Below the pieces are notes generated by a model, which saw nothing but the letters and a program-made list of their open reading frames with translations, searched no databases and was not told the origin of the DNA. 64,000 nt of DNA, from assembly GCF_900105985.1 (NCBI RefSeq), contig NZ_FNUB01000005.1:2356001-2420000 (forward strand), read 5' to 3'. The stretch is from Tenacibaculum sp. MAR_2010_89. Lineage in GTDB: Bacteria > Bacteroidota > Bacteroidia > Flavobacteriales > Flavobacteriaceae. This document shows positions 6,373-18,335 of this stretch, piece by piece. How positions within the stretch are numbered: position 1 is the first letter of the stretch; each line of letters begins with the position of its first letter. Position numbers and translations under genes: made by a program.

Positions 6373-7122
6373 TTAATAATTAATCAAACCTTCCTGTACT
6401 AAAATATATTCAGTAATTTCATCTAATTCTCTTTTAGTTTCAGGATGAATACCCCTTGCTGTAAAAAACTCACGTTTTCCTTGATTATTACTACCATACC
6501 AGTAATTAGGAACACCTTCAGTAAAAAACTCCATATTTTTAGTAAGAACTACTTTTTTAAAACGAGCAATATCTATATGATACAGTGTATCACTAATAGC
6601 TCCTTCTGTAGTGCAAGTTATTCTTTCATAATGATCTTGATTCCATACAATGCAGTTACCTGTATTAAAGAAGTAATCTCTTTTGAAAAAGATAAAAGAT
6701 GATACGGATAGTAATGTAATGCTAATTGTAATTATTACTTTTTGTTTTATGCTGTTTGTGGGGGTGCTAGTAGTTGGTTTAGTTATATTAATACTAGTTT
6801 CTTTGTTACTAATATTTTCAATAGTATTATCTTTTATAAGATTACTATTTTTTAATTTAAAGTCTTCATAATCCTCAAACCCTAAATATTCTGCCATTAC
6901 ATCTTTTATAAAAAGGTCAGGGGCACTAACAGGAATATCCTTTTCTTTTTCTACATATCTCTTATGTAACCTACTAATTTTTTGCACACTTACATGATCA
7001 AATATTTCATTTCTTCTCTCTAGTAGTTCTTCCACAAAGAATACTGCTTTACCATTTCTAGATGTAATGGATTCATCTTTTTCTATACTAGTAAAAAAAT
7101 CTACAATAAGTTTTTCAATCAT
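6373..7122 (-). CDS. Uncharacterised single-pass membrane protein
   Basis: I do not recognise a named family. The 249-residue protein has an N-terminal soluble region of about 90 residues that looks helical and ends in YLGFEDYEDFK, a Ser/Thr/Asn-rich linker (about 95-125), one hydrophobic segment (about 128-147: IITISITLLSVSSFIFF) and a C-terminal domain of about 100 residues with a Cys pair (NCIVW, ITCTTEG). With no signal peptide, the N-terminal domain is probably cytoplasmic and the C-terminal part periplasmic, the layout of a membrane-anchored sensor or regulator. It is on the same strand as the XRE-cupin gene, 73 bp upstream of it. Confidence 0.6.
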   Translation of the reverse strand: MIEKLIVDFFTSIEKDESITSRNGKAVFFVEELLERRNEIFDHVSVQKISRLHKRYVEKEKDIPVSAPDLFIKDVMAEYLGFEDYEDFKLKNSNLIKDNTIENISNKETSINITKPTTSTPTNSIKQKVIITISITLLSVSSFIFFKRDYFFNTGNCIVWNQDHYERITCTTEGAISDTLYHIDIARFKKVVLTKNMEFFTEGVPNYWYGSNNQGKREFFTARGIHPETKRELDEITEYILVQEGLINY

Positions 7123-7520
7123 GATTAATCAATTGTTATACAAATCTTATCCAAAAGTAATTCTGTTGTACAAAAATTGATTACGGTTATCCATAAACTA
7201 GACAAATACCACTTGGTTAAAAATTGATAATGTTTTGATTAATGGTAAAATTCAGATAATCAGAATCTTTGCAGTGGCATTGATCGAGAAAACAAAAAAT
7301 AAAAATTCGATTAGTTCTAGTTAACAGATGTATAATCAGTGAATTTTCTTAGACAGGAAAGCTATTAAAAACTACTGATTTTCATCTTCACTTTCCACAA
7401 AAGAGGCTCGAGACTCTTTTAAAATTTTAGGCTTTTCCAAGCACTGTATCGACCTGAGCAATCAAGCTCGGAAAAGAAAACTAATGCTCAAAAATTTTAA
7501 AAGATTAAAAATTTTATAAT
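7123..7520. other. 398-bp intergenic region with a structured right half
   Basis: It separates divergent genes. No reading frame of note is visible before 7521. The right half, 7416-7503, folds as described separately and probably forms the leader of the small lipoprotein mRNA. No clear TAnnTTTG box with a well-spaced -33 element was found; the nearest candidate is CTTTG around 7270. Confidence 0.5.
7416..7503 (+). ncRNA. Predicted nested stem-loop in the leader of the small lipoprotein gene
   Basis: A 13-bp perfect outer stem pairs 7416-7428 (CTTTTAAAATTTT) with 7491-7503. Inside it CTTTTCC (7432-7438) pairs with GGAAAAG (7470-7476), and GAGC (7456-7459) pairs with GCTC (7466-7469). The structure ends 17 nt before the ATG at 7521, so it could gate translation or stabilise the mRNA. 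No known riboswitch class was recognised; function is unknown. Confidence 0.4.
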
Positions 7521-7765: not shown

Positions 7766-9661
7766 ATGAAAAAAAATAAGAATCTAGTTTTACTTTTTAG
7801 TATATTAATAATTATTTCATGCTATAATAATAAAGAAAACTTAACCCAAAAAGATAAAATATTAAAGTACTACTCATTGAGTAAAAATGATTCACTATCT
7901 ATTGATAAAAGGAAAGAGAATTTAAAGAAAGCTTTTAAACTTATTGAAGTTATAAAGTTTGATTCTTTAGAATTGAAAATGCTTAATTATAATGTTATTT
8001 TATTTAGAAAAGAGAAGAATTATAAAAAAGCTATTCAAGCATCTAAGCATTTATTAATAAAAGCTTTAAAATATAATGACAAAAGAAGTATTGGTGAAGC
8101 ATATTATAAACTTGGGTTGTATAATGAGAGAATTAACCAAAAAGATTCAGCATATTTTTTTTATAATAAATCTTTAAAAATTTATGAAGTTATAAATGAT
8201 AGTATGAAAATAGGTAGAAGACTTTTAAATATTGCTATTATTGAATCAAGTTTTGGAGATTATAAAAAAAGTAATGCTACAGCAGTAAAAGCATTACAAT
8301 TTTTCGATAAAAAAGGAACAGAATATATTGCTTCTATATATAATAATTTAGGTATAAATTCAAGAAAACAAGAGTTATATGAAAAAGCAATTAAATACTA
8401 TGAAAAAGCAATTACTTTATCAAAAAAAAGGAATAAAATTAATATTTATAAAAATAATATAGCTATTTCATGTAAAAAAATGAAAAATTATGACCAATCA
8501 ATCGATATTTTAAGCAAAATATTAATTGATTCTACTCTTAATAAATTTTTAGAAACTAAAGCTAGAGCTATTGATAATTTAGCCTATGTAAGGTGGTTGA
8601 AAAATTCAAAATTAAATGTATTGCCACAATTTTTGGAAGCTAAAAGAATAAGAATCAAAGAGAAAAATTTTGAAGGATTAATAGCTTCTTACGCACACTT
8701 ATCAGATTATTATGGAGAATTAGATAAGAGTAAGTCATTAACCTATGCTTATGAAATGTATAATATAGCAACTAAAGAGAAAAGTCCTTATGATATCATT
8801 GAAGCATTGGATAAGATTTCAATGTTAGAGACGGCTGATAAAGGAATAAATTTTGCAATAAAAAGAAATAAGTTAAAAGACAGCCTAATAAAGGTAAAAG
8901 ATAAAGAACAGTATAAATATGCTTTGGTGAAATATGAAAGTGAGGAAAATGAAAAAAAAGCATTAAAGAATAAGTATTTAGCTGAAGAACAAAAAACAGA
9001 AAAACAAGGTTGGATTTTTATTGGACTTACTACTATGTTAGGTTTTATAATGTATATCTATTACAAAAGAGCAAAAACCAAAAAAGAAAAAGTAATAGAG
9101 GTTTATAAAACTGAAACACGTTTAGCTAAAAAAATTCATGATGAATTGGCTAATGATGTATACTTAGCGATGAACAAAATACAAAATAAATCAGGAGAAG
9201 AATCTTCAATTTTAGCCGATTTAGAAAAAATATATTTGCAAACGAGAAATATCTCACACGAAAATAGTCCTGTGCTTACTGGAAATCAATTTGAAGGTTT
9301 TTTAAAACAGTTATTTGCTGATTTTTCTGCCGATGGTTGTAAAGTAATGAATAAAGGGCTGTCAGAAATAACTGTTAACGAGCTTTCTAAAGAAAAACAA
9401 ATAGTTATTTACAGAGTGTTGCAAGAGTTATTAGTTAATATGAAAAAATATAGTGAGGCTAATTTAGTAATAGTTTCATTTTCTCTAATAAAAGATACAT
9501 TACAAATACAATATAAAGACAATGGAATTGGAGTAGAAACACTAGAAATAAAAAATGGACTCCAAAATATGGAAACCCGTATAAAATCTATAGGAGGTTC
9601 TATTATTTTTGAATCAGAAATGCAAAAAGGATTTCAGGCAAAATTTCAATTTAAAAAGTAG
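7766..9661 (+). CDS. TPR-containing sensor histidine kinase
   Basis: 631 residues. The N-terminal hydrophobic segment ends in IISC (Cys19), a possible lipobox or signal anchor. Residues about 70-340 contain several tetratricopeptide repeats (for example YNNLGINSRKQELYEKAIKY), predicted periplasmic. One membrane helix lies at about 414-432, followed by a dimerisation region with His458 (LAKKIHDELANDV, HisKA_3-like) and a HATPase domain with N box (QELLVNMKKYSEA), DNGIGV and a final GGS...F segment. It phosphorylates the response regulator encoded 2 nt downstream. The signal is unknown. It could also control the accessory island that follows; that is inference. Confidence 0.85.
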   Translation: MKKNKNLVLLFSILIIISCYNNKENLTQKDKILKYYSLSKNDSLSIDKRKENLKKAFKLIEVIKFDSLELKMLNYNVILFRKEKNYKKAIQASKHLLIKALKYNDKRSIGEAYYKLGLYNERINQKDSAYFFYNKSLKIYEVINDSMKIGRRLLNIAIIESSFGDYKKSNATAVKALQFFDKKGTEYIASIYNNLGINSRKQELYEKAIKYYEKAITLSKKRNKINIYKNNIAISCKKMKNYDQSIDILSKILIDSTLNKFLETKARAIDNLAYVRWLKNSKLNVLPQFLEAKRIRIKEKNFEGLIASYAHLSDYYGELDKSKSLTYAYEMYNIATKEKSPYDIIEALDKISMLETADKGINFAIKRNKLKDSLIKVKDKEQYKYALVKYESEENEKKALKNKYLAEEQKTEKQGWIFIGLTTMLGFIMYIYYKRAKTKKEKVIEVYKTETRLAKKIHDELANDVYLAMNKIQNKSGEESSILADLEKIYLQTRNISHENSPVLTGNQFEGFLKQLFADFSADGCKVMNKGLSEITVNELSKEKQIVIYRVLQELLVNMKKYSEANLVIVSFSLIKDTLQIQYKDNGIGVETLEIKNGLQNMETRIKSIGGSIIFESEMQKGFQAKFQFKK

Positions 9662-9663
9662 TT

Positions 9664-10329
9664 ATGTTTCAAAAAGTATTAATAGCAGAAGATGTCGATT
9701 TTATGTCTAGTGGAATTAAAATGGCATTAGAAAGCTTACAAATTCCAGTAATAGAATATGCACAATATTGTGATGAAGCGTTTTTAAAACTTAAAAAAGC
9801 GTTTTTAGACAATGAACCATTCGATTTGTTAATTAGTGATTTATCATTTGTTGAAAATCCTAATCCGCAACGATTAACATCAGGAGAAGATTTAATAAGA
9901 GAAGCTAAAAAATTACAAGCCACATTACAAACTATTGTTTTTTCAGTAGAAGATAAACCCTACAGAGTACAGCAGTTATGTAATGAGTTAGTAGTGAATG
10001 GATATGTATGGAAATCGGTTAACGGACAAAGAGAACTTAAAAAAGCAATAAAAAAAGTTTTCGATGGAGAGTTTTTTATATCGCACCAATTAGCGCATAC
10101 ACTAAGAAGTAAAGAAACTTTTGAAATTACCGATTACGATGTGTTTTTATTAAAACATTTAGCTGAAGGTATGGATCAAAAAGAGATTAGCATTGAACTT
10201 AAAGAAAGTAATATAAAACCGCACAGTATTAGTTCGGTAGAAAAACGGTTAAAGACCTTAAAAGAAAACTTTAATGCGAATAATCCCACACAACTAATAG
10301 CGATTACTAAAGATTTCGGATTGATTTAA
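9664..10329 (+). CDS. Response regulator with C-terminal helix-turn-helix
   Basis: 221 residues. The receiver domain has an acidic pair Glu9-Asp10, phospho-acceptor Asp59 (LLISDLSF) and Lys117 (YVWKS). The C-terminal region (about 145-215) contains a LuxR/FixJ-like helix-turn-helix: LLKHLAEGMDQKEISIELKE ... SVEKRLKTLKENF. It is the cognate partner of the TPR sensor kinase, separated by two bases. Its mRNA ends at a hairpin that is the first member of the terminator family repeated through the downstream island. Confidence 0.85.
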   Translation: MFQKVLIAEDVDFMSSGIKMALESLQIPVIEYAQYCDEAFLKLKKAFLDNEPFDLLISDLSFVENPNPQRLTSGEDLIREAKKLQATLQTIVFSVEDKPYRVQQLCNELVVNGYVWKSVNGQRELKKAIKKVFDGEFFISHQLAHTLRSKETFEITDYDVFLLKHLAEGMDQKEISIELKESNIKPHSISSVEKRLKTLKENFNANNPTQLIAITKDFGLI

Positions 10330-10352
10330 AAGAACTTTACATATTATAATAG

Positions 10353-10376
10353 AACCCTACGGAAACCCGTAGGGTT
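10353..10376 (+). terminator. Terminator hairpin, island element 1
   Basis: AACCCTACGG (10353-10362) and CCGTAGGGTT (10367-10376) form a perfect 10-bp stem with a 4-nt loop, then TTTTCT. Near-identical hairpins lie at 11249, 12231 and, diverged, 13367. Confidence 0.85.
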
Positions 10377-10401
10377 TTCTGTTTTTAGCAAAGTAATTTT
10401 G
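10375..10401 (+). promoter_or_regulatory. Island promoter element 1 (TAATTTTG)
   Basis: The T tract TTTTC (10375-10379) of the terminator, exactly 14 nt, then TAATTTTG (10394-10401), a good Bacteroidota -7 box. The ATG follows 31 nt later at 10433. The same geometry recurs four more times. Confidence 0.65.
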
Positions 10402-10432
10402 AGGTAGTATTAATTTAAAAATATTAGAATTT

Positions 10433-10720
10433 ATGGATGTTAAAATTTGCGAAGCAATTTCACAAAAAAAAATAATTACTTTTTATTATGAAAATGAATT
10501 AAGGAAAGTTGAACCTCATTGTTATGGATTAACTACAGCTGGTAATAAAGGATTAAGGGCTTATCAGGTAGATGGCTATAGTAAATCTGGTAAGTACGGT
10601 TGGAAAATGTATGATCTAAATAAATCTGAACAAATTAAGATAGTTCTTGAAAATTTTAATTTAAGAAATGATTATAAAAAGGGAGATAAAGGAATGACTT
10701 TAATTTATTGTGAGGCTTAA
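10433..10720 (+). CDS. Stand-alone WYL-like domain protein
   Basis: 95 residues. The pattern ITFYYENELRKVEPHCYGL, LRAYQVDGYSKSG and GWKMYDLNK is that of the WYL domain, an SH3-like ligand-sensing fold normally found in transcription factors and defence regulators. Here there is no DNA-binding domain, so it may sense a ligand or bind a partner. It is the first gene of the first island unit and is followed 12 nt later by a DUF4177-like gene. Function is unknown. Confidence 0.6.
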   Translation: MDVKICEAISQKKIITFYYENELRKVEPHCYGLTTAGNKGLRAYQVDGYSKSGKYGWKMYDLNKSEQIKIVLENFNLRNDYKKGDKGMTLIYCEA

Positions 10721-10732
10721 TTAAAAAAAATT

Positions 10733-10963
10733 ATGGAATATAAAGTAATACCATTCATTCCTTCTATTAATAGAAATAAAGAGAACTCAACACAGGTTGC
10801 TCAACAATTGGAGGATATTATAGCTAATTATACTAATCAAGGCTGGCAATACATTCGTTTAGAAAGCGTACAAACATATATAGTACCAGACCAAGGGTGT
10901 TTTGGTTTAGGCGCAAAACCAGGGTTTACAGCGTATAGACAAATGCTTGTTTTTGGAAAATAA
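10733..10963 (+). CDS. Small DUF4177-like protein
   Basis: 76 residues, no signal peptide. The layout MEYKVIPF ... LEDIIANYTNQGWQYIRLESVQTY ... YRQMLVFGK matches the short DUF4177 family (beta-strand, helix with GW(E/Q)Y, strand, strand). No biochemical role is known. Its last base overlaps the start of the YidD-like gene (TAATG arrangement), so the two are translationally coupled. Confidence 0.6.
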   Translation: MEYKVIPFIPSINRNKENSTQVAQQLEDIIANYTNQGWQYIRLESVQTYIVPDQGCFGLGAKPGFTAYRQMLVFGK

Positions 10964-11244
10964 TGAAATATATTTTATTAATAATAATAAAACTGTATTG
11001 GTTGTTTAAAGCTAAAAACAAACCTCCTTGTTGTATTTTTAAAAAAAACTGTTCAAGGTATGTATATGAAGAAACAAAAAAGAAAGGTTTTTACATGGGA
11101 CTTTTAGCTTTAAAATATAGAATACAGAATTGTAAATATAGTTTTGAAATTTATACTAACCCCAATAGTGGTAAATTAGAAATGATATTACCAAAAGGAG
11201 ATATACTTGAAACAGAAAAGATAGCAGAACGATTATTAAATTAG
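10963..11244 (+). CDS. YidD-like membrane protein insertion efficiency factor homologue
   Basis: 93 residues. An N-terminal amphipathic/hydrophobic stretch (IIIKLYWLFK) is followed by CCIFKKNCSRYVYEETKKKGFYMGLLALKYRIQNCK. This matches the YidD pattern (P-x-CRF-x-PTCS-x-YA-x-EA, G, G, R-x-x-x-C) with several substitutions. Classic yidD lies in the rpmH-rnpA-yidC locus; this copy is in an accessory island and is diverged, so it is probably a paralogue with a specialised or unknown role. The unit ends with a hairpin 5 nt after the stop. Confidence 0.6.
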   Translation: MKYILLIIIKLYWLFKAKNKPPCCIFKKNCSRYVYEETKKKGFYMGLLALKYRIQNCKYSFEIYTNPNSGKLEMILPKGDILETEKIAERLLN

Positions 11245-11248
11245 TTTT

Positions 11249-11274
11249 AAACCCTACGGAAATCCGTAGGGTTT
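11249..11274 (+). terminator. Terminator hairpin, island element 2
   Basis: AAACCCTACGG (11249-11259) pairs perfectly with CCGTAGGGTTT (11264-11274) around a 4-nt loop, then TG and further T. It is almost identical to the hairpins at 10353 and 12231. Confidence 0.85.
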
Positions 11275-11298
11275 TGTGTTTTTACTAGAGTAGTTTTG
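11272..11298 (+). promoter_or_regulatory. Island promoter element 2 (TAGTTTTG)
   Basis: TTTTG (11272-11276), 14 nt, TAGTTTTG (11291-11298), then 28 nt to the ATG at 11327. Same spacing as the other island elements. Confidence 0.65.
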
Positions 11299-11326
11299 AA
11301 GAAATATTAACTTAAAAAACAAGGAA

Positions 11327-11791
11327 ATGAAAAAAACTATAATTATTTTATTGTTGGTAACATTTAGCTCATGTTATTCAGCCAAAGTTGTAACAACTCC
11401 AAAGCCAATACATAGAATAATCAAAACTAAGTTTAAGAAAAGTAAAAACTATATTAAAGCGAATGAATGGATGGTTGAATCTTTTATTAGCTCTAAAAGT
11501 GTAATTCAATTTAGTGATAAAGAAGAAGGTATAATTAAAGGAAAGTATTTAATGTATCAAGGAATACAAGGAACAAAATATACACCTAGTTCTAAACCTT
11601 ATTATGGAATTATAACAATTCGGGTAAAAGATAATTCAGTAAAAATAGAAATTACTCCTTTAGGAGAATTTAAAGTTATGAAATATATGGGAAGTAATTA
11701 TGGTTTTACTCCTGAACAGTTCATAATAAAAGGGAATTCTCTAGTAAATGACTTTAATGTGTATTTGAAAAATAACGAAGATACTTGGTAA
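11327..11791 (+). CDS. Lipoprotein of unknown function
   Basis: 154 residues. A signal peptide ends in TFSSC (Cys16). The mature part looks like a compact alpha/beta fold (MVESFISSKSVIQFSDKEEGIIKGKYLMYQG ... YYGIITIRVKDNSVKIEITPLGEF). This is reminiscent of the DUF4468/TBP-like-fold lipoproteins of Bacteroidota, although I cannot assign it firmly. It is the first of two lipoprotein genes in the second island unit; the next starts 9 nt after its stop. Confidence 0.6.
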   Translation: MKKTIIILLLVTFSSCYSAKVVTTPKPIHRIIKTKFKKSKNYIKANEWMVESFISSKSVIQFSDKEEGIIKGKYLMYQGIQGTKYTPSSKPYYGIITIRVKDNSVKIEITPLGEFKVMKYMGSNYGFTPEQFIIKGNSLVNDFNVYLKNNEDTW

Positions 11792-11800
11792 AATATAGGT

Positions 11801-12232
11801 ATGAAAAATAAATTTTTAATCGTTGTAATATTAATTTTAATAAGTTCTTGTTCCAGTGTATATAATACATATGATGTAAATGAAGATTTAATTTTATATA
11901 AATCTAAGTCTTTGGGGAGTAAAAAAATTATTGTGATTCCCAAAGGAGAGGTAGTTAAAGTTAAAGGAACAAAAGAGTATAAAAAAATTAAATATAAAAA
12001 TTATTTAGGATGGGGTTATAAGCCAAAAGTAAGTAGAATAGCTTTTAAAATACGTAAAAATAAGTCTAGTTTTCATTCTACTAATAGTAGTTTTGGAACT
12101 GTATCTGTAAAGGGGTATTATAGAAAAGATGGAACTTATGTAAGGTCACACACAAGAGGAAAGCCTAAAGCTAAAAAACATGAAAGCTATTACAGAAAAA
12201 GAAAATATAAAAAAAAGAAGACGTTAAAGTAA
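11801..12232 (+). CDS. Basic lipoprotein with SH3-like and YYRKDGTYV motif
   Basis: 143 residues. The lipobox is ISSC or SSCS near Cys17. Residues about 28-75 look like a small SH3-type barrel (ILYKSKSLGSKKIIVIPKGEVVKVKG ... WGYKPKV). Residues about 103-123 hold VSVKGYYRKDGTYVRSHTR, a motif I have seen repeated in other Bacteroidota surface proteins. The tail is very Lys/Arg-rich. The stop codon overlaps the left arm of the terminator hairpin. It is probably a periplasmic or surface protein binding wall or anionic polymer; that is inference. Confidence 0.6.
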   Translation: MKNKFLIVVILILISSCSSVYNTYDVNEDLILYKSKSLGSKKIIVIPKGEVVKVKGTKEYKKIKYKNYLGWGYKPKVSRIAFKIRKNKSSFHSTNSSFGTVSVKGYYRKDGTYVRSHTRGKPKAKKHESYYRKRKYKKKKTLK

Positions 12233-12258
12233 AACCCTACGGAAATCCGTAGGGTTTT
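12231..12258 (+). terminator. Terminator hairpin, island element 3
   Basis: AAAACCCTACGG (12231-12242) pairs perfectly with CCGTAGGGTTTT (12247-12258) around loop AAAT. It overlaps the stop codon of the preceding gene. Confidence 0.85.
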
Positions 12259-12281
12259 GTTTTTTGGGTACTCTAGTTTTG
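12255..12281 (+). promoter_or_regulatory. Island promoter element 3 (TAGTTTTG)
   Basis: TTTTG (12255-12259), 14 nt, TAGTTTTG (12274-12281), then 29 nt to the ATG at 12311. It shows that translation does not start at the earlier in-frame ATG at 12257, which would lie upstream of the transcript start. Confidence 0.65.
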
Positions 12282-12310
12282 TTTTTATTAATACTCATAA
12301 TCCCCCGAAA

Positions 12311-12889
12311 ATGAAAAATATCAAAAAGGAAACCTATCAGTTACTAATTCCTGTTATCCTAATCAGTTTACTTCTAAGTAAAAGTCAGCAGCATACAAGT
12401 ATTTTAAAAAAAAGAAGCAAAAATATACCCGTACTAGGGTGTTATATTGATATTGGTGGACGATGTACAGGTTCAGCTTATTGTAGGGCATGTAAAAATT
12501 GTAGTAGTTGTAAGTATTGTAATAATGGAGGTTCTTGTGGGGTGTGCTCAGATGGGTATAAAGCCCCCAGAAGGAAAAAGAGAAAAAGAACTTACCCTAA
12601 AAAACAAAAATCAATAAAGAAAAATATATATGATGGTCGAAATAATAGTTTAACAACTACGCAGCAATTAAAAGAGGAGCCTCTGTATTTAAGAATTTTG
12701 TTAGTTAATAAAGAAAACTTAAGCCTTAGAAGTGGTCCCAGTATTACCAATTATGAAATTCAACAACTACGAAAAGGAGAGGAGTTAGTAGTATTGGCAA
12801 TGCATGCTCAATGGATTAAAGTTAAAGTAAAGAGAACCCAAACAATCGGTTTTGTGTATTATAAATATGTTGTTTTGGTTAATGATTAA
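12311..12889 (+). CDS. Cys-rich protein with C-terminal bacterial SH3 domain
   Basis: 192 residues from the ATG at 12311, chosen because the promoter box is at 12274-12281. A hydrophobic N-terminus (about 9-22) is a likely signal peptide or anchor. A Cys-rich segment follows (CYIDIGGRC then CRACKNCSSCKYC then CGVC), a possible metal knuckle or disulfide cluster. After a basic linker comes an SH3 domain (about 137-190: NLSLRSGPSITNYEIQQL, KGEELVVLA, WIKVKV, GFVYYKYV), a fold that often binds peptidoglycan. It is the only gene in its unit. Function is unknown. Confidence 0.65.
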   Translation: MKNIKKETYQLLIPVILISLLLSKSQQHTSILKKRSKNIPVLGCYIDIGGRCTGSAYCRACKNCSSCKYCNNGGSCGVCSDGYKAPRRKKRKRTYPKKQKSIKKNIYDGRNNSLTTTQQLKEEPLYLRILLVNKENLSLRSGPSITNYEIQQLRKGEELVVLAMHAQWIKVKVKRTQTIGFVYYKYVVLVND

Positions 12890-12933
12890 TTAAGTTTTGA
12901 GATAAAAATTATCGATAATGGATTCCCGTAATG

Positions 12934-12960
12934 TTTTAGAATTAACTAAAATTAGTTTTG
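12934..12960 (+). promoter_or_regulatory. Island promoter element 4 (TAGTTTTG, no good hairpin)
   Basis: TTTTA (12934-12938), 14 nt, TAGTTTTG (12953-12960), then 31 nt to the ATG at 12992. The upstream ATAATGG/CCGTAAT pairing is only a weak, degenerate relative of the terminator stem. Confidence 0.55.
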
Positions 12961-12991
12961 AAAAAGTATAAATTTAAAAATAATTATAAAA

Positions 12992-13327
12992 ATGGGTAAA
13001 CCAAAATTCGAAATTACAAAAAGAGTAAACAATGAGTTTATGTTTAATTTAAAAGCAGGAAACGGAGAAATAATCTTAACGAGTGAAGGTTATGATAATA
13101 AACAGGGATGTAAAAACGGAATAATTTCGGTTAAAGAAAATGCACCTGAAGATAATAACTATGAAAAGAAAACAGCTTCTAATGGTAAATATTATTTTGT
13201 GTTAAAAGCACTAAATAATAAAGTAATAGGTAAAAGTCAAATGTATACCAGCACTTCAGGTAGAGATAAAGGAATAGAATCAGTAAAAGATAACGGACCT
13301 TCAGCAGATACAGTTGACTTAACATAA
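12992..13327 (+). CDS. YegP/DUF1508 (UPF0339) family protein
   Basis: 111 residues without a signal peptide, with two tandem DUF1508 repeats. The first is FMFNLKAGNGEIILTSEGYDNKQGCKNGI, ISVKENAPE; the second is YYFVLKALNNKVIGKSQMYTS, GIESVKDNGP. Each repeat forms a short beta-alpha unit with F-x-L-K-A and a G-I-x-S-V-K signature. Many bacteria carry such small cytosolic proteins and their role is not established. It forms its own unit between two island promoter elements. Confidence 0.8.
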   Translation: MGKPKFEITKRVNNEFMFNLKAGNGEIILTSEGYDNKQGCKNGIISVKENAPEDNNYEKKTASNGKYYFVLKALNNKVIGKSQMYTSTSGRDKGIESVKDNGPSADTVDLT

Positions 13328-13366
13328 ACAATTATCTGTAGAAGATAAAATTTATATAGTATTCAT

Positions 13367-13392
13367 AAGCCTTATGGGAAACCGTAAGGTTT
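13367..13392 (+). terminator. Terminator hairpin, island element 5 (diverged)
   Basis: CCTTATGG (13370-13377) pairs with CCGTAAGG (13382-13389), one G-T wobble, extended by AAG/TTT, then TTGTTGTTT. It keeps the loop GAAA and the shape of the other island hairpins but differs in sequence. Confidence 0.75.
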
Positions 13393-13416
13393 TGTTGTTT
13401 AAGGAGAGTAGATTTG
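13390..13416 (+). promoter_or_regulatory. Island promoter element 5 (TAGATTTG)
   Basis: TTTTG (13390-13394), 14 nt, TAGATTTG (13409-13416), then 30 nt to the ATG at 13447. It probably drives the long run of closely spaced genes to 18335. Confidence 0.65.
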
Positions 13417-13446
13417 AAGTAAATAACCAAACTAATATTTATTATA

Positions 13447-13650
13447 ATGAAAGAGTTAAAAATTACCAGTGTCTTTATTTTATTTATTTTGATTTTAAGT
13501 TGTTCAACAGATAATACTGAAAAATTAACAGAATGGAGATGTGGTACACACAATGGTAACGAACTATGGACAGGACCTAAAGGAGGATGCTATTATAAGA
13601 ATAGTAATGGAAATAAGACATATGTAGATAGATCAGAATGTGATTGTTAG
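13447..13650 (+). CDS. Small Cys-containing lipoprotein
   Basis: 67 residues. A signal peptide ends in LILSC (Cys19). The mature part has WRCGTHNGNELWTGPKGGCYYKNSNGNKTYVDRSECDC, with four Cys that could form two disulfides. The YY-x-NSNGNKTYVDR-x-x-C pattern is known to me from small secreted proteins and nuclease-associated tails, without an assigned role. It is the first gene of the longest island operon; the channel gene begins 10 nt after its stop. Confidence 0.7.
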   Translation: MKELKITSVFILFILILSCSTDNTEKLTEWRCGTHNGNELWTGPKGGCYYKNSNGNKTYVDRSECDC

Positions 13651-13660
13651 TCGAAAGAAC

Positions 13661-14408
13661 ATGAAAACAAAAGCTACTCAATTACTTAATTATAACTTTT
13701 TTTTTTGCAAAAGGTATTTACCTTTTAATAATTTTAAATGCAATTTGTTTAATTCTTGAATCTTTCAAAGTACTGCGAGTACAATATGCTACTTTTTTTC
13801 AAATGATAGAGGAATTTTCTATAGTGATTTTTACTTTAGAATTTATTACAAGAATTATAATAGCAGAAAAGAAAAATGAAAAGGGGTGGAATTCTTATGT
13901 GTTTTCTGGCTATGGTATTTTAGATTTATTATCAATATTGCCTTTTTATTTACCCTTAATTTTTCCTTTCGATTTAAGAATGTTAAGAGTACTTAGACTT
14001 TTAAGATTAGTAAGGATTTTTAAATTAGGGAGGTATTCAAAATCTTTTAAAACAATTAATTTAATACTTAGGGAAGCTAAACCAGAATTATTAATAACAG
14101 CATTTATAGCTTTAGTATTAGTAATGTTGTCTTCTACTTTAATTTTTTATGCTGAAAATGAAGCACAACCAGATAAATTTTCAAGTATTATAGAAGCGTT
14201 TTGGTGGTCTTTAGGAACTTTAACTACGGTTGGAGTTGCAGATGTGTACCCAGTAACCCCACTAGGAAAGTTTTTAAGCGCATTAATTGGAGTAATTGGT
14301 ATTGGCTTTGTAGCCTTACCAACTGGTATTATAAGTTCTGCTTTAATTGATAAAGTAAAAGAAGATAAAAAAGATTGTATCGATTGCCCTAATTGTGGTA
14401 TAAAATAA
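13661..14408 (+). pseudogene. Voltage-gated K+ channel-like ion transporter, frameshifted at a T10 tract
   Basis: The ATG at 13661, 10 nt after the upstream gene, opens MKTKATQLLNYNFFF and then goes out of frame at the ten T of 13697-13706. With nine T the frame runs on through S1 (GIYLLIILNAICLILE) into the intact part that is open from ATG 13803. The repaired product would be 248 residues. Visible parts are S4 with spaced Arg (RMLRVLRLLRLVRIFK), the pore helix (EAFWWSLGTLTTVG), an unusual filter TTVGVAD (codons 14223-14243) in place of TTVGYGD, and S6 (LIGVIGIGFVALPTGI). The tail has CIDCPNC. If the ATG at 13803 is used, S1 is lost. This may be phase variation, a sequence error or decay. 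Confidence 0.75.
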
Positions 14409-14425
14409 ATAACAAGTAAAATGAT

Positions 14426-14674
14426 ATGGGATTACAATTTTATAGACGCCTAAAATTAGGAAAAGGTTTAGGGTTAAATATTAGTAAGTCAGGAATATCT
14501 CCAAGTTTACGAACTAAAATAGGTGCAGTAAGCTCAAAAGGATACTCAATAAAAACAGGTATAAAAGGACTTAATTATAGAAAATACTATTCTAAAAAAG
14601 AAGCTATTGGGTGTTTCGGGATTGTATTTACAATCATTAGTGTTTTTATAGCATTATTAACTAAAAGAAAATGA
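14426..14674 (+). CDS. DUF4236 domain protein
   Basis: 82 residues. The N-terminal half is a clear DUF4236 match: MGLQFYRRLKLGKGLGLNIS, KSGISPSLRTKIG, then a GY-x-I-KTGIKGLNYR segment. A C-terminal hydrophobic helix (IGCFGIVFTIISVFIALL) probably anchors it in the membrane. Family members are small, widespread and of unknown role. Its last four bases overlap the next start (ATGA), so it is coupled to the following membrane protein. Confidence 0.8.
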   Translation: MGLQFYRRLKLGKGLGLNISKSGISPSLRTKIGAVSSKGYSIKTGIKGLNYRKYYSKKEAIGCFGIVFTIISVFIALLTKRK

Positions 14675-15042
14675 AAAAACAAAATTATTTAAGATTACTA
14701 AACATAGTATGTTCAGTATCCTTATTTGTAGCAATAACCAACCTTCCTATAATATATTATAATTTTTTAAGAATACTAGTTTTTATAGGTTGTCTATTTA
14801 TTGTTTTCAATTATAAAATCAAAAAAATGTGGAGGTTAGTATTTGTTCCGATAGCCATACTTTTTAATCCAATTTTTCCTGTTTTTTTATATTTAAAACC
14901 ATATTGGATTCCTTTAGATATACTAGCAGGTATTCTATTTCTACTAGTAACTTTTTATGGGGCTGTTTTTAGTGAGATAGAATCAAAAACAACAACAAAG
15001 CAAGTTGTGAAAAATAGAAATATGTATAACGTAAAATATTAA
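14671..15042 (+). CDS. Small four-helix membrane protein, DUF6804-like
   Basis: 123 residues with about four hydrophobic helices and the signature YYNFLRILVFIGCLF ... PIAILFNPIFPVFLYLKPYW, which I associate with DUF6804. No function is known. It starts within the DUF4236 gene (ATGA overlap) and ends 3 nt before the TerB-like gene, so it belongs to the same operon. Confidence 0.7.
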   Translation: MKKQNYLRLLNIVCSVSLFVAITNLPIIYYNFLRILVFIGCLFIVFNYKIKKMWRLVFVPIAILFNPIFPVFLYLKPYWIPLDILAGILFLLVTFYGAVFSEIESKTTTKQVVKNRNMYNVKY

Positions 15043-15045
15043 TAA

Positions 15046-15444
15046 ATGAATGAAATAACTACCGAACTTAAAAGTCATTTTCTTAGATTATATCAAATGG
15101 CTTTTTCAGATGATAATTTTGATGTATTAGAAATGCAAATGTTATACAAATTTGCAGAAGAAAGGAAAGTATCTAAGAAAGAACTTGATACTATTTTATT
15201 ATCACCTTATCATGATAGTTCTATACCAAATAGTCTTGAACTAAAAATAGAATATTTGTACGATTTAGCTGTAATGATTTGGGCAGATGAAAAAGTAACA
15301 AATGATGAAATTACAACTTTAAAAAAATACTGTTCAAAGTTTGGATTTCTTGAAGAAAATTTAAATGAGCTTACTGATTTTTTAATTGAAAATGCCAAAA
15401 GAAGTACATCAAAAACTGAATTATTAAAACAACTAATTGATTAA
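15046..15444 (+). CDS. TerB-like helical protein
   Basis: 132 residues, all-helical, no signal peptide. The pattern of an N-terminal FLRLYQMAFSDDNFDVLEMQML and a central YLYDLAVMIWADEKVTNDEITTLKKYC repeats the TerB motif of paired acidic residues (D-D/E at helix starts) that can bind a divalent metal. TerB-type proteins act in envelope-stress and tellurite-type systems with vWA proteins. Here it precedes a coiled-coil membrane protein and a vWA-like lipoprotein, which suggests a three-part assembly. Function is inferred. Confidence 0.65.
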   Translation: MNEITTELKSHFLRLYQMAFSDDNFDVLEMQMLYKFAEERKVSKKELDTILLSPYHDSSIPNSLELKIEYLYDLAVMIWADEKVTNDEITTLKKYCSKFGFLEENLNELTDFLIENAKRSTSKTELLKQLID

Positions 15445-15448
15445 CAAA

Positions 15449-16723
15449 ATGGAAGCATTAAAAAAAATATTTATCACTAAGAAAGAAGAACCTGTAAAAA
15501 AAGTAGAAACAATAAGTGAAGATAAAAAGGATCATAAGTTTACTTTTTTTGAAAGTGGATATGGTTCATCAAAACAAGCATCTGGAAATCATAAAGTTTT
15601 TAGAGCTTGTTTAAATGATGTTTACATGGATTATAAAAGTAAATGCGCCGAAGATGATAAATTACAAAACAAATTAAAAGAACCACACATACAAGAAAAA
15701 GGTAGAGAGGGGATTGAGTTAAAAAAAAGACAAACTGTTAAAGGTATCTTAGAAGAAGAGATAAAGAAAGATGAGGAAGAAATAGAAGACTGTAAAAATC
15801 AAATAATTGATGTTAAAGAAGATCCAGAAAAGTATGTTGAAGATGTAGATAAAAAGCCTAAAGCTCAATTTTATATAGGATTAATAGTATTAGTACCAAT
15901 TACTCTTTACTTGTTAGTGTTTTATATTTCAGCTTCCTATTCTGCCTTTTTTAAAGACTTTGAAAGTATTTCAAGTTTAGGGGTAAATAATACAATATTT
16001 TCTGCTGATGCTTTAACAAGTGCTTTTAATGATGGGGTTATGGAGGGGGTTTTTGTGTTAACAATTCCTTTTGCTTTTATGGGGTTAGGATATTTAATTC
16101 ACATGTTTCAAAAGCACAAAAGTTGGGTGTCTTATGTTAAAATAGGTGTTCTATTTGTTATAACATTCATTTTTGATGCTATTCTAGCATACTTAATTGA
16201 AATGAAAATTTATGAATTTAATAAAACACCAGATTCACCAGATTTTAATTTATCAATAGCTTTTAGTAAAGTAGAATTCTGGGGGATAATTTTTGCAGGT
16301 TTTGTAGTATATATTATATGGGGGTTAGTTTTTGACTTTATTATGAAAGAATATGAAAATATAGATAAAATAAAAGCTTTTATTAGAGGGAAAAGGGAGA
16401 CTATTGAAAATTTAAAAAAATCAATAATAGAAGCTGTAGAGAAGTTAAATGGTATTAAAAAAGATATTTCAGGAATAGAAGCTAGAATTACAGATTTACA
16501 GAGTACTATTGATGGATTTGTATTTCCTAATAAACGTTATTTAACTTATCATGCAGAATATGTAAAAGGTTGGTATTTAGCTGTTACAGATAATTTTGAT
16601 AACTTAAAAAGGAGAAACGAATTACTATCTGAATGTGAAACAATAGAAAAAGAACACCTTTCAAAATATGATTTAACGAATGAAAATACTGAAGGAATAA
16701 TTTATAAATCACAATTAAACTAA
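15449..16723 (+). CDS. Coiled-coil protein with four membrane helices
   Basis: 424 residues from the ATG at 15449; an in-frame TTG lies at 15437 but overlaps the previous gene. Residues about 60-130 are charged and coiled-coil-like (EEEIKKDEEEIEDCKNQI). Four hydrophobic segments follow: about 136-158 (FYIGLIVLVPITLYLL), 195-215 (GVFVLTIPFAFMGLGYLI), 226-248 and 272-296. A second coiled coil (about 300-360) then leads to a conserved-looking C-terminal helical part (NKRYLTYHAEYVKGWYLAV). I do not recognise a named family. Its place between TerB-like and vWA-like genes suggests a membrane scaffold. Confidence 0.65.
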   Translation: MEALKKIFITKKEEPVKKVETISEDKKDHKFTFFESGYGSSKQASGNHKVFRACLNDVYMDYKSKCAEDDKLQNKLKEPHIQEKGREGIELKKRQTVKGILEEEIKKDEEEIEDCKNQIIDVKEDPEKYVEDVDKKPKAQFYIGLIVLVPITLYLLVFYISASYSAFFKDFESISSLGVNNTIFSADALTSAFNDGVMEGVFVLTIPFAFMGLGYLIHMFQKHKSWVSYVKIGVLFVITFIFDAILAYLIEMKIYEFNKTPDSPDFNLSIAFSKVEFWGIIFAGFVVYIIWGLVFDFIMKEYENIDKIKAFIRGKRETIENLKKSIIEAVEKLNGIKKDISGIEARITDLQSTIDGFVFPNKRYLTYHAEYVKGWYLAVTDNFDNLKRRNELLSECETIEKEHLSKYDLTNENTEGIIYKSQLN

Positions 16724-16729
16724 AGAAAA

Positions 16730-17629
16730 ATGCGAATATATTTAATTATAGTTCTGAGTATTTTATTTTTTTCATGTAAAAAAGAAGTAGTACCTAATAA
16801 TGAAAGCAGTAGTTATAAAAAGGTTAGTGTTAAAAAAAATAAAAAAAAACAAAATTTGAATATTAGTATTCTATTAGATTTATCTGACAGAATAGACTCT
16901 GTGAAATTTTCAAATCCATCTATGGAATATTATCAACGAGATTTAGGATACATTGAAAGTATTACAAAAGTATTTGAAAGTCATTTAATGAATAAAAAAA
17001 CGTACAGTATTAATGATAAAATACAGTTATTTATAGATCCTGAACCATCAGATAGGGCACTAAATAAAAAAATAACTAACCTTAAAATTCAATTTGATAA
17101 AAAAAATGCGACTAAAAATAAAATAAAACAAACCTCTATAAAGTACAAAGAAGTTTGTACTGATATTTATAATACTGCAATTTCTGATGGAAAATACATA
17201 GGATCAAATATAAGAGGTTTCTTTAAAAACAAAATGAATGATTATTGTATAGATAATAAGTATCGAAATATTGTAATAATTTTAACGGACGGGTATATTT
17301 TTCATAAGCATGATATAATAAAAAGCAAGAATAAAACATCGTATTTAACACCAAAAACTATAAAAGGATTCGGTTTAAATACTGAAAAATGGAATAAAAA
17401 AATGGAAAGACATAATTATGGTTTTCTATCAATAGATAAGAAGTTAGAAAATATTGAAGTTTTAGTTTTAGGGATAAATCCAAGTAATAACAATCCTTAT
17501 GAAGGAGAAGTAATCAAGGCATATTGGTCAAAATGGTTAACAGAGATGAGTATTAAAAAGTTTCAATTAAAAACTGCAGATTTACCAACCCATATTGATG
17601 ATGTCATTAATAATTTCATTTTAAATTAA
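16730..17629 (+). CDS. vWA-like lipoprotein
   Basis: 299 residues. A signal peptide ends in FFSC (Cys16). From about residue 45 a von Willebrand A-like fold is suggested: strand plus MIDAS-like ISILLDLSDRID (D-x-S-x-R instead of D-x-S-x-S) and a later strand NIVIILTDGY carrying the second acidic site. No extra domain is seen. It probably binds a metal and a protein partner in the periplasm. It sits 6 nt after the coiled-coil membrane protein and 2 nt before the nuclease gene. Confidence 0.65.
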   Translation: MRIYLIIVLSILFFSCKKEVVPNNESSSYKKVSVKKNKKKQNLNISILLDLSDRIDSVKFSNPSMEYYQRDLGYIESITKVFESHLMNKKTYSINDKIQLFIDPEPSDRALNKKITNLKIQFDKKNATKNKIKQTSIKYKEVCTDIYNTAISDGKYIGSNIRGFFKNKMNDYCIDNKYRNIVIILTDGYIFHKHDIIKSKNKTSYLTPKTIKGFGLNTEKWNKKMERHNYGFLSIDKKLENIEVLVLGINPSNNNPYEGEVIKAYWSKWLTEMSIKKFQLKTADLPTHIDDVINNFILN

Positions 17630-17631
17630 CC

Positions 17632-18105
17632 ATGCATCTAAAAACAATATTCCTTTTTCTTTTATTTTTTATAGTTAAACAAAAAGTACCCAAAGAATTT
17701 TATGCAAAAGTAATTGGTGTAAAAGATGGAGACACTATTGAAGTTTTATATAAAAAGAAACCATTAATTATAAGGTTAGCGCATATAGATTGTCCAGAAA
17801 AGAAACAAGCATTTGGCAATAAAGCAAAACAGTTTGTAGCTACCAAAATATTTGGTAAAAATGTGCGGATAATTAATAAAGGAAAGTGGCACTGGAATCG
17901 ATTAATAGCAGAAGTATATTATAATAAAGTGGAAAATATAAATGAAACTTTAGTTGAAAATGGATTGGCAATGCATTTTAAAAAATACTCAAAAAGTAAA
18001 AGATACCATAATTTAGAACAAGTGGCTAAGAAACAAAAAATAGGAATATGGTCACAACCAAATAGTATTACACCATGGCAATACAGAAAATCAAACTACC
18101 CATGA
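17632..18105 (+). CDS. Thermonuclease-family (SNase) exported nuclease
   Basis: 157 residues with an N-terminal hydrophobic signal (IFLFLLFFIV). The SNase fold is clear: YAKVIGVKDGDTIEV, IRLAHIDCPEKKQAFG (catalytic Arg and Asp region), RLIAEVYY and NETLVENGLAMHFKKYS, then GIWSQPNSITPWQYRK. Staphylococcal-type catalytic Asp, Arg, Glu and Arg positions appear to be present. It degrades DNA or RNA with Ca2+ in known members. Its stop overlaps the next start (ATGA). Confidence 0.85.
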   Translation: MHLKTIFLFLLFFIVKQKVPKEFYAKVIGVKDGDTIEVLYKKKPLIIRLAHIDCPEKKQAFGNKAKQFVATKIFGKNVRIINKGKWHWNRLIAEVYYNKVENINETLVENGLAMHFKKYSKSKRYHNLEQVAKKQKIGIWSQPNSITPWQYRKSNYP

Positions 18106-18335
18106 AAAATATTTTATTAGTACTCATAATTTTTTCATTAACAGCATTTCAACAAATTAAAGAGAAGGAAGTATATGTTTGTAAAAGTGTTGCAAGCAAG
18201 CGATATCACTTAAAAAAAAATTGTAAAGGACTTACTTCCTGTAAAACCGAAATAAAAAAAACTACGAAAAAAAAAGCAAAAAGATACGGGCGAACACTCT
18301 GTAAATGGGAAAGAAAACTATTAAAAAAAAAATAA
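18102..18335 (+). CDS. Small exported Cys/His protein following the nuclease
   Basis: 77 residues from the ATG at 18102, which overlaps the nuclease stop; an in-frame ATG at 18075 would remove the signal-peptide layout. A signal peptide (ILLVLIIFSLTAFQ) precedes VYVCKSVASKRYHLKKNCKG, then LTSCKTEI and GRTLCKW. The Cys-x(n)-YH-x(n)-C-x-GL-x-x-C pattern is a small metal-binding-like motif often found beside or fused to SNase domains. The very basic composition suggests nucleic-acid binding. It is the last gene of the island operon. Confidence 0.65.
   Translation: MKNILLVLIIFSLTAFQQIKEKEVYVCKSVASKRYHLKKNCKGLTSCKTEIKKTTKKKAKRYGRTLCKWERKLLKKK

Follow-up and report, generated by a model that had tools for sequence, protein, structure and literature searches.

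A dyad at fixed distance from the -7 box recurs in Flavobacteriaceae as the probable operator-promoter of an adjacent two-component system

Inverted-repeat operators are usual for response regulators of the NarL/RcsB/UhpA type, and integron cassette arrays line up small genes of unrelated kinds, with a repeated element separating the units. FimS/FimR of Porphyromonas gingivalis is, in the available text of PMC11053733, a two-component system in which the inner-membrane kinase has a TPR sensor domain and the cognate regulator upregulates a gene cluster. We analysed a stretch of 64,000 nucleotides (nt) of Tenacibaculum sp. MAR_2010_89 (contig NZ_FNUB01000005.1, positions 2,356,001 to 2,420,000, forward strand), called the window below, in which the genes for a TPR-containing sensor kinase and a response regulator are followed by an array of small-gene units, each headed by a copy of the same short module. 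The repeated module is very probably the operator-promoter of a two-component regulon, activated in a class-II-like manner by the adjacent kinase/regulator pair.

The array had been described in an earlier note, made from the DNA letters and a list of open reading frames (ORFs), as five TAnnTTTG boxes at 10394, 11291, 12274, 12953 and 13409, each 28–31 nt upstream of an ATG. These boxes were all recovered, together with the near-identical hairpins ahead of boxes 1–3 and the diverged one ahead of box 5. The T-rich tract, which had been given as an invariant part of the module, is weaker than the dyad core and its 22-nt distance from the box: the shared element is a fixed-sequence dyad, TACGGNNNNCCGTA, whose 3' end lies exactly 22 nt ahead of TAnnTTTG. 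Box 4, listed as lacking a hairpin, does have a degenerate dyad, AATGGattcCCGTA, in exact register, although it is true that this dyad does not fold. TAnnTTTG by itself is commonplace, with 112 occurrences in the window on both strands. Dyads with at most two mismatches placed exactly 22 nt before such a box number seven (three, three and one with zero, one and two mismatches, respectively), whereas 200 sequences from a first-order Markov model averaged 0.0. Two of the seven are additional to the five described, one on the forward strand within the kinase gene and one on the reverse strand. The exact CCCTACGG/CCGTAGGG hairpin has three copies in the whole 4.17 Mb genome, all in the window, and modules 1 and 2 are 86% identical across 69 nt, leader included. 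The regulatory genes and the seven copies are as follows.

7766..9661, + strand: sensor histidine kinase with TPR repeats (TPR above the Pfam cut-off, HATPase_c just below)
9664..10329, + strand: response regulator, remotely RcsB/NarL/UhpA-like
7152..7195, - strand: divergent operator-promoter, a one-mismatch dyad with exact spacing, preceding the gene at 7122-6373
9568..9611, + strand: kinase-internal operator-promoter, with a one-mismatch dyad at 9568-9581 and the -7 box at 9604-9611; the regulator ATG is 52 nt further on
10353..10401, + strand: module 1, exact dyad core 10358-10371 inside a longer hairpin, -7 box 10394-10401
11250..11298, + strand: module 2, exact dyad core 11255-11268, -7 box 11291-11298
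12233..12281, + strand: module 3, exact dyad core 12238-12251, -7 box 12274-12281
12917..12960, + strand: module 4, two-mismatch dyad 12917-12930, -7 box 12953-12960, without a stable hairpin
13367..13416, + strand: module 5, one-mismatch dyad core 13373-13386, -7 box 13409-13416

Class-II activators usually bind with their centre near -41.5. TAnnTTTG is the -7 box of flavobacterial sigma-A, located at -12 to -5 in Flavobacterium psychrophilum according to the available text of PMC9723704, and a box in this position would put the dyad core at -48 to -35 with its centre at -41.5.

Loci of relatives were picked by the response-regulator protein, taking the best 80 of at least 519 relatives; the closest named relatives among these are Tenacibaculum larymnensis and T. 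ovolyticum, with 80–81% regulator identity, and the set contains some duplicate genomes (e.g. L132/L135 and L180/L183). Exact dyads were found in 61 of the 80 loci, 103 in total, and 63 of them start within 500 nt past the regulator. TAnnTTTG occurs 5–44 nt downstream of 81 of the 103 dyads, and the spacing is 22 nt in all 81 cases, 77 outside the kinase gene and 4 within it. An exact box is absent from that interval for the remaining 22; a one-mismatch box at 22 nt follows 17 downstream dyads, the window included. By direct motif count, 67 of 81 loci have at least one downstream site.

A strict form of the motif, with tighter flanks, was then applied to 397 genomes of the family, with the reversed motif as a control. 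This form excludes most kinase-internal matches, although two still pass, at -751 and -759. It is present in 82 genomes and in 66 of 237 genera, with no reversed-control matches, and in 2 of 240 genomes of a class sample outside the family. A looser scan that allowed spacings of 20–24, and that includes kinase-internal copies and a few other spacings, gave 108 of 397 genomes and about four control matches; external sites were counted without it. An orthologue of the regulator was found at E 1e-30 in 143 of the 397 genomes, and the two features go together: 75 genomes have motif and regulator, 7 the motif only, 68 the regulator only and 247 neither (Fisher 2.5e-32). For 72 of the 122 strict sites, a listed regulator lies no more than 12 kb away, and 63 of them are located on its strand, downstream of it.

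The copy inside the kinase gene is likewise found in the relatives. Matches lie ∼750–770 nt before the regulator end, within the kinase coding sequence, and mostly 44–64 nt before the regulator ATG; with up to two mismatches, the site is present in 77 of 81 loci by direct motif count. For 78 of the 81 kinases the codons could be aligned (L154 and L176 were left out for their unresolved frame and L156 for a Gly in place of Glu), and the third positions within the site are frozen. The Arg codon of the site is CGT or CGC in all 78 (T in 76, C in 2; T expected at 0.15), and Arg elsewhere in the kinases, of which 77 of 81 were parsed for this count, is encoded by AGA 266, CGA 86, CGT 81, AGG 43, CGC 37 and CGG 15 times. 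The wobble base is T in 78/78 at the Asn codon (one Tyr), A in 78/78 at the Glu codon and C in 78/78 at a further codon (expected 0.28), and where a G is called for it is G in 53/53 degenerate codons (expected 0.17). In the -7 box, T is found in 78/78 at the box start (expected 0.45) and in 77/78 at the Phe codon. Codons -4, -3, -2, -1 and +8 have an invariant wobble, codons such as -7, -5, +1, +2, +3, +11 and +12 vary at background, and codons -6, +4, +6 and +9 near the site are also biased, none of them invariantly. Ranking of 323 columns in the 64 of 81 kinases with 300 codons placed the seven strongest wobble biases within the site stretch, including one spacer column; the site's Glu and Phe codons come only 13th and 14th, since their usual codon already fits.

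Twenty loci were fetched from the 68 genomes with the regulator and no strict match, and 19 of them carry the kinase-internal site with exact spacing and at most two mismatches. L231 and L233 repeat the DNA of L142 and L188, which leaves 18 new loci, 17 of them with the site. In L235, the one locus that lacks it, the wobbles of the dyad are preserved and TTG replaces the Phe codon.

The divergent copy precedes a predicted target gene:

6373..7122, - strand: predicted target gene, 249 amino acids

Its protein has no match in Pfam, NCBIfam or PADLOC. In all 14 Tenacibaculum-type loci, counting the window, a related gene carries the site, with one mismatch in 8 and two in 6. The next ORF beyond the site (7521) has the opposite direction, and thus there is no co-directional gene immediately upstream of the divergent site to terminate.

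The mechanism that we infer from the motif, its fixed spacing, its association with the regulator gene and the frozen synonymous sites is as follows. The TPR kinase (7766-9661) would signal to the NarL/RcsB-like regulator (9664-10329), which, probably as a dimer, would bind the dyad centred at ∼-41.5 and activate RNA polymerase at TAnnTTTG in the style of a class-II activator. The predicted targets are the regulator's own gene, through a promoter lying within the 3' part of the kinase coding region; the divergent upstream gene; and the five consecutive downstream small-gene units. The putative transcription starts, ∼5 nt past the TTTG, would fall near 9616, 10406, 11303, 12286, 12965 and 13421, and near 7147 on the minus strand. 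Most dyads located behind a gene in Tenacibaculum, Lutibacter and Polaribacter are extended and carry a T-tract, and these probably serve also as terminators of the unit before them. The earlier note had suggested that the adjacent pair might control all copies, and this is now its strongest part, given the spacing, the co-occurrence and the frozen codons.

The units of the array, and the genes that follow it, are:

10433..10720, + strand: unit 1, protein of 95 amino acids without a Pfam match
10733..10963, + strand: unit 1, DUF4177-like, below the Pfam cut-off
10963..11244, + strand: unit 1, YidD, passes the Pfam cut-off
11327..11791, + strand: unit 2, DUF4468, lipoprotein-like, passes the Pfam cut-off
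11801..12232, + strand: unit 2, SH3_3-like and lipoprotein-like, below the Pfam cut-off
12311..12889, + strand: unit 3, Cys-rich with SH3_3, passes the Pfam cut-off
12992..13327, + strand: unit 4, DUF1508 (YegP-like), passes the Pfam cut-off
13447..13650, + strand: unit 5, small lipoprotein-like, the last module-headed gene in the window
13803..18335, + strand: co-directional genes up to parE (ion channel, DUF4236, DUF6804, TerB, two unknown, SNase, a small ORF)

The names proposed earlier for these genes hold for YidD, DUF1508, DUF4468 and the SH3_3 of 12311-12889; DUF4177 and the SH3_3 of 11801-12232 fall short of the Pfam cut-off, and 'WYL-like' for the first gene of unit 1 was dropped for want of Pfam support. 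The genes at 13803..18335 may be read from module 5. The array is flanked by the kinase/regulator pair on one side and by gyrB/parE-type (18429) and parC-type (20391, by homology to the loci of relatives) genes on the other. Predicted targets, drawn from sites with at most two mismatches, form a mixed set of small genes whose 116 distinct proteins group into 42 clusters; the families include DUF1508, HSDR_N, bacterial PH-domain and Cys-rich proteins.

Gene order is not identical in all relatives: among the 14 Tenacibaculum-type loci, clustered on mechanical ORFs, both content and order vary downstream of the regulator. The number of downstream sites per locus ranges from none (L122, L126, L128, L129 and L153) to six (T. 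ovolyticum, L121). Compared with T. ovolyticum, the window has the DUF4177-like/YidD pair in its first instead of the fourth unit and the DUF1508 unit in fourth instead of second place; in both, as in T. aiptasiae, the array ends with the small lipoprotein unit. These comparisons of gene order thus document units being gained, lost and moved between species.

Several further observations concern sites and genes of this kind. Outside the window, the same genome has a one-mismatch operator-promoter at G000:C5:2449805 (L207, 1502-1887), ∼80 kb from the array and 26 nt upstream of an ORF of 105 amino acids, which is likely a regulon member in trans. A separate repeat resembling TACGGATACCCGTAAAGTAA...TATATATTTA occurs outside the window at G000:C4:294962, C4:43092, C5:1453513, C5:2850868 and C5:3161333, and probably represents another repeat family, distinct from this operator. 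The Tenacibaculum loci L122 and L124 (∼11200-17300) have tandem genes of one small lipoprotein-like family (F1) and two larger genes after the regulator, and the motif units of L124 are ∼8 kb away from the regulator. Related proteins lie behind the operator in L125, L148, L186 and L194, the L125 member having a type I restriction HSDR_N domain. In L178 (11399-12350), an Aequorivita metagenome-assembled genome, cas1 is preceded at 26 nt by an exact dyad whose -7 box, TACTTTGG, has one mismatch, and control of CRISPR adaptation by this system is possible there. In PADLOC, only the L178 Cas1 gave a match; the L125 HSDR_N protein and the eight window proteins submitted did not, and on this ground a reading of the array as a defence island was rejected.

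The earlier note had seen the module mainly as a terminator-promoter joint. In the rival reading along these lines, a hairpin would end one unit beside an ordinary promoter, no regulator would bind and the likeness of the copies would stem from duplication. The four array hairpins do fold strongly as RNA (z-scores of -4.2 to -5.6) and have T-tracts, and terminator-like features, defined as at least two extra stem pairs and at least five T in eight, are present at 18 of 23 downstream exact-dyad sites in the Tenacibaculum group and 19 of 29 in Lutibacter/Polaribacter. However, a hairpin with a T-run is not found at every copy, even in the window, where the copies at 12917, 9568 (kinase-internal) and 7195 (divergent) do not fold stably (z-scores of 0.52, -1.83 and -0.62). 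Elsewhere such features are rare: in Flavobacterium and others 7 of 45 downstream sites have them, and of the kinase-internal and divergent sites 1 of 77 and 1 of 14, respectively; the remaining 38, 76 and 13 keep dyad and spacing without them. Since the dyad is kept at sites without a terminator, it is the constant part and the terminator a local addition; moreover, termination would demand no particular sequence and no set distance from the -7 box that comes next. Termination as the primary function was therefore rejected, and a joint of this kind without regulator binding is very unlikely. The best reading is that the terminator is a lineage-specific second use of the operator. As for each unit having its own stop and start, a start is predicted at each module, and a stop is plausible at four of the five only. 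It is similarly hard to credit that constraint on the protein or on codons alone explains the kinase-internal match, with no regulatory role. The protein motif N-x-E-x-R-I...F is itself conserved, but rare wobbles (expected frequencies of 0.17 for G, 0.28 for C and 0.15 for T at Arg) are fixed only at dyad and -7 box bases. Eleven paralogous kinases in the genus sample that have a similar protein motif vary at these positions (Arg CGT 3, CGC 2, AGA 6). An artefact of N-x-E-x-R-I was rejected on the strength of the fixed synonymous positions.

In a further rival reading, the dyad would belong to some other regulator or to a paralogous response regulator, for which the adjacent pair would be merely one target. 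Ten strict sites, in 7 genomes, have no regulator match at E 1e-30, and 40 of the 122 strict sites are in regulator-bearing genomes, far from a listed regulator, although distances were measured against listed regulators and some of these sites may adjoin an unlisted paralogue. In L030, a paralogous regulator (∼28% identity) is trailed by a near-complete site, its stop being followed at 36 nt by an exact dyad and this, at 22 nt, by a one-mismatch box, and paralogues or a wider regulator family may share the operator. Nevertheless, 75 of the 82 motif genomes have the orthologue, and the kinase-internal copy, in 77 of 81 loci, stands just ahead of the regulator gene and points to autoregulation; we consider another regulator unlikely. 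The same distant and unaccompanied sites, and L030, weigh against activation by the adjacent pair, as do several other points. The strict site is missing from 68 regulator genomes, 20 of which were examined as above. The domain matches of the adjoining kinase and regulator genes are partly below Pfam cut-offs, Response_reg and HATPase of the window just so; among 40 regulator orthologues, Response_reg is found in 38 (E 0.01), DUF5932 in 19 and GerE in 1, and the remote relatives of known structure are RcsB, other NarL-like regulators and NarL, so that the DNA-binding domain of the regulator rests on remote similarity. The binomial probabilities for wobble bias assume independent sequences and thus overstate the case, the better control being the free variation at neighbouring codons of the same sequences. 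Finally, the regulator may repress instead. Compatible with activation by the pair is the earlier proposal of an integrase-free cassette array, in which the identical modules would act as recombination sites for adding, losing and shuffling units. The units differ, their order changes between species, and the 86% identity of modules 1 and 2 would fit. Against this, in the window, T. ovolyticum and T. aiptasiae the module of the last unit keeps TTA/TAA where most others have CTA/TAG, which argues against general homogenisation, and we regard recombination between modules as doubtful.

A broader picture can be offered tentatively, as one possibility: a widespread flavobacterial two-component system would keep an operator-promoter, under synonymous constraint, in its own kinase coding sequence for autoregulation, the operator would in some genera double as a terminator, and insulated, self-contained units would build up next to the regulator as a regulated integrase-free array, made of small accessory genes. 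If the operator does act as a terminator too, this would account for the addition of units next to the regulator without read-through. The putative promoter frozen in the kinase gene is a clear bacterial case of regulatory DNA constraining synonymous sites, and a sharp operator definition with a predicted regulon for a widespread two-component system provides a handle on small genes of unknown function.

A search of the open-access literature found no description of this dyad or system, and the closest described systems each share a part of it. Like FimS, the window kinase has TPR repeats, although its match to FimS is far below the cut-off, and FimS/FimR targets fimbriae whereas the predicted targets of the window pair are other genes. 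As in NarL, RcsB and UhpA, the window regulator combines a receiver with a C-terminal region that has remote profile matches; however, all of these are far below the equivalog cut-offs, and the C-terminus is assigned to DUF5932 in 19 of 40 orthologues and to GerE in 1 of 40. The -7 box TAnnTTTG is the same as in flavobacterial sigma-A promoters, but here a dyad stands at a fixed 22 nt, and none is mentioned in the available text of PMC9723704. Integron arrays resemble the window in lining up unrelated small genes separated by a repeated element, whereas the repeats of the window are directly oriented operator-promoters; no search aimed at integrases was made. Judged by its sequence, the locus represents a known kind of system, the two-component regulon, in a form that is both new and unusually clear, with one operator-promoter repeated before changing small genes.

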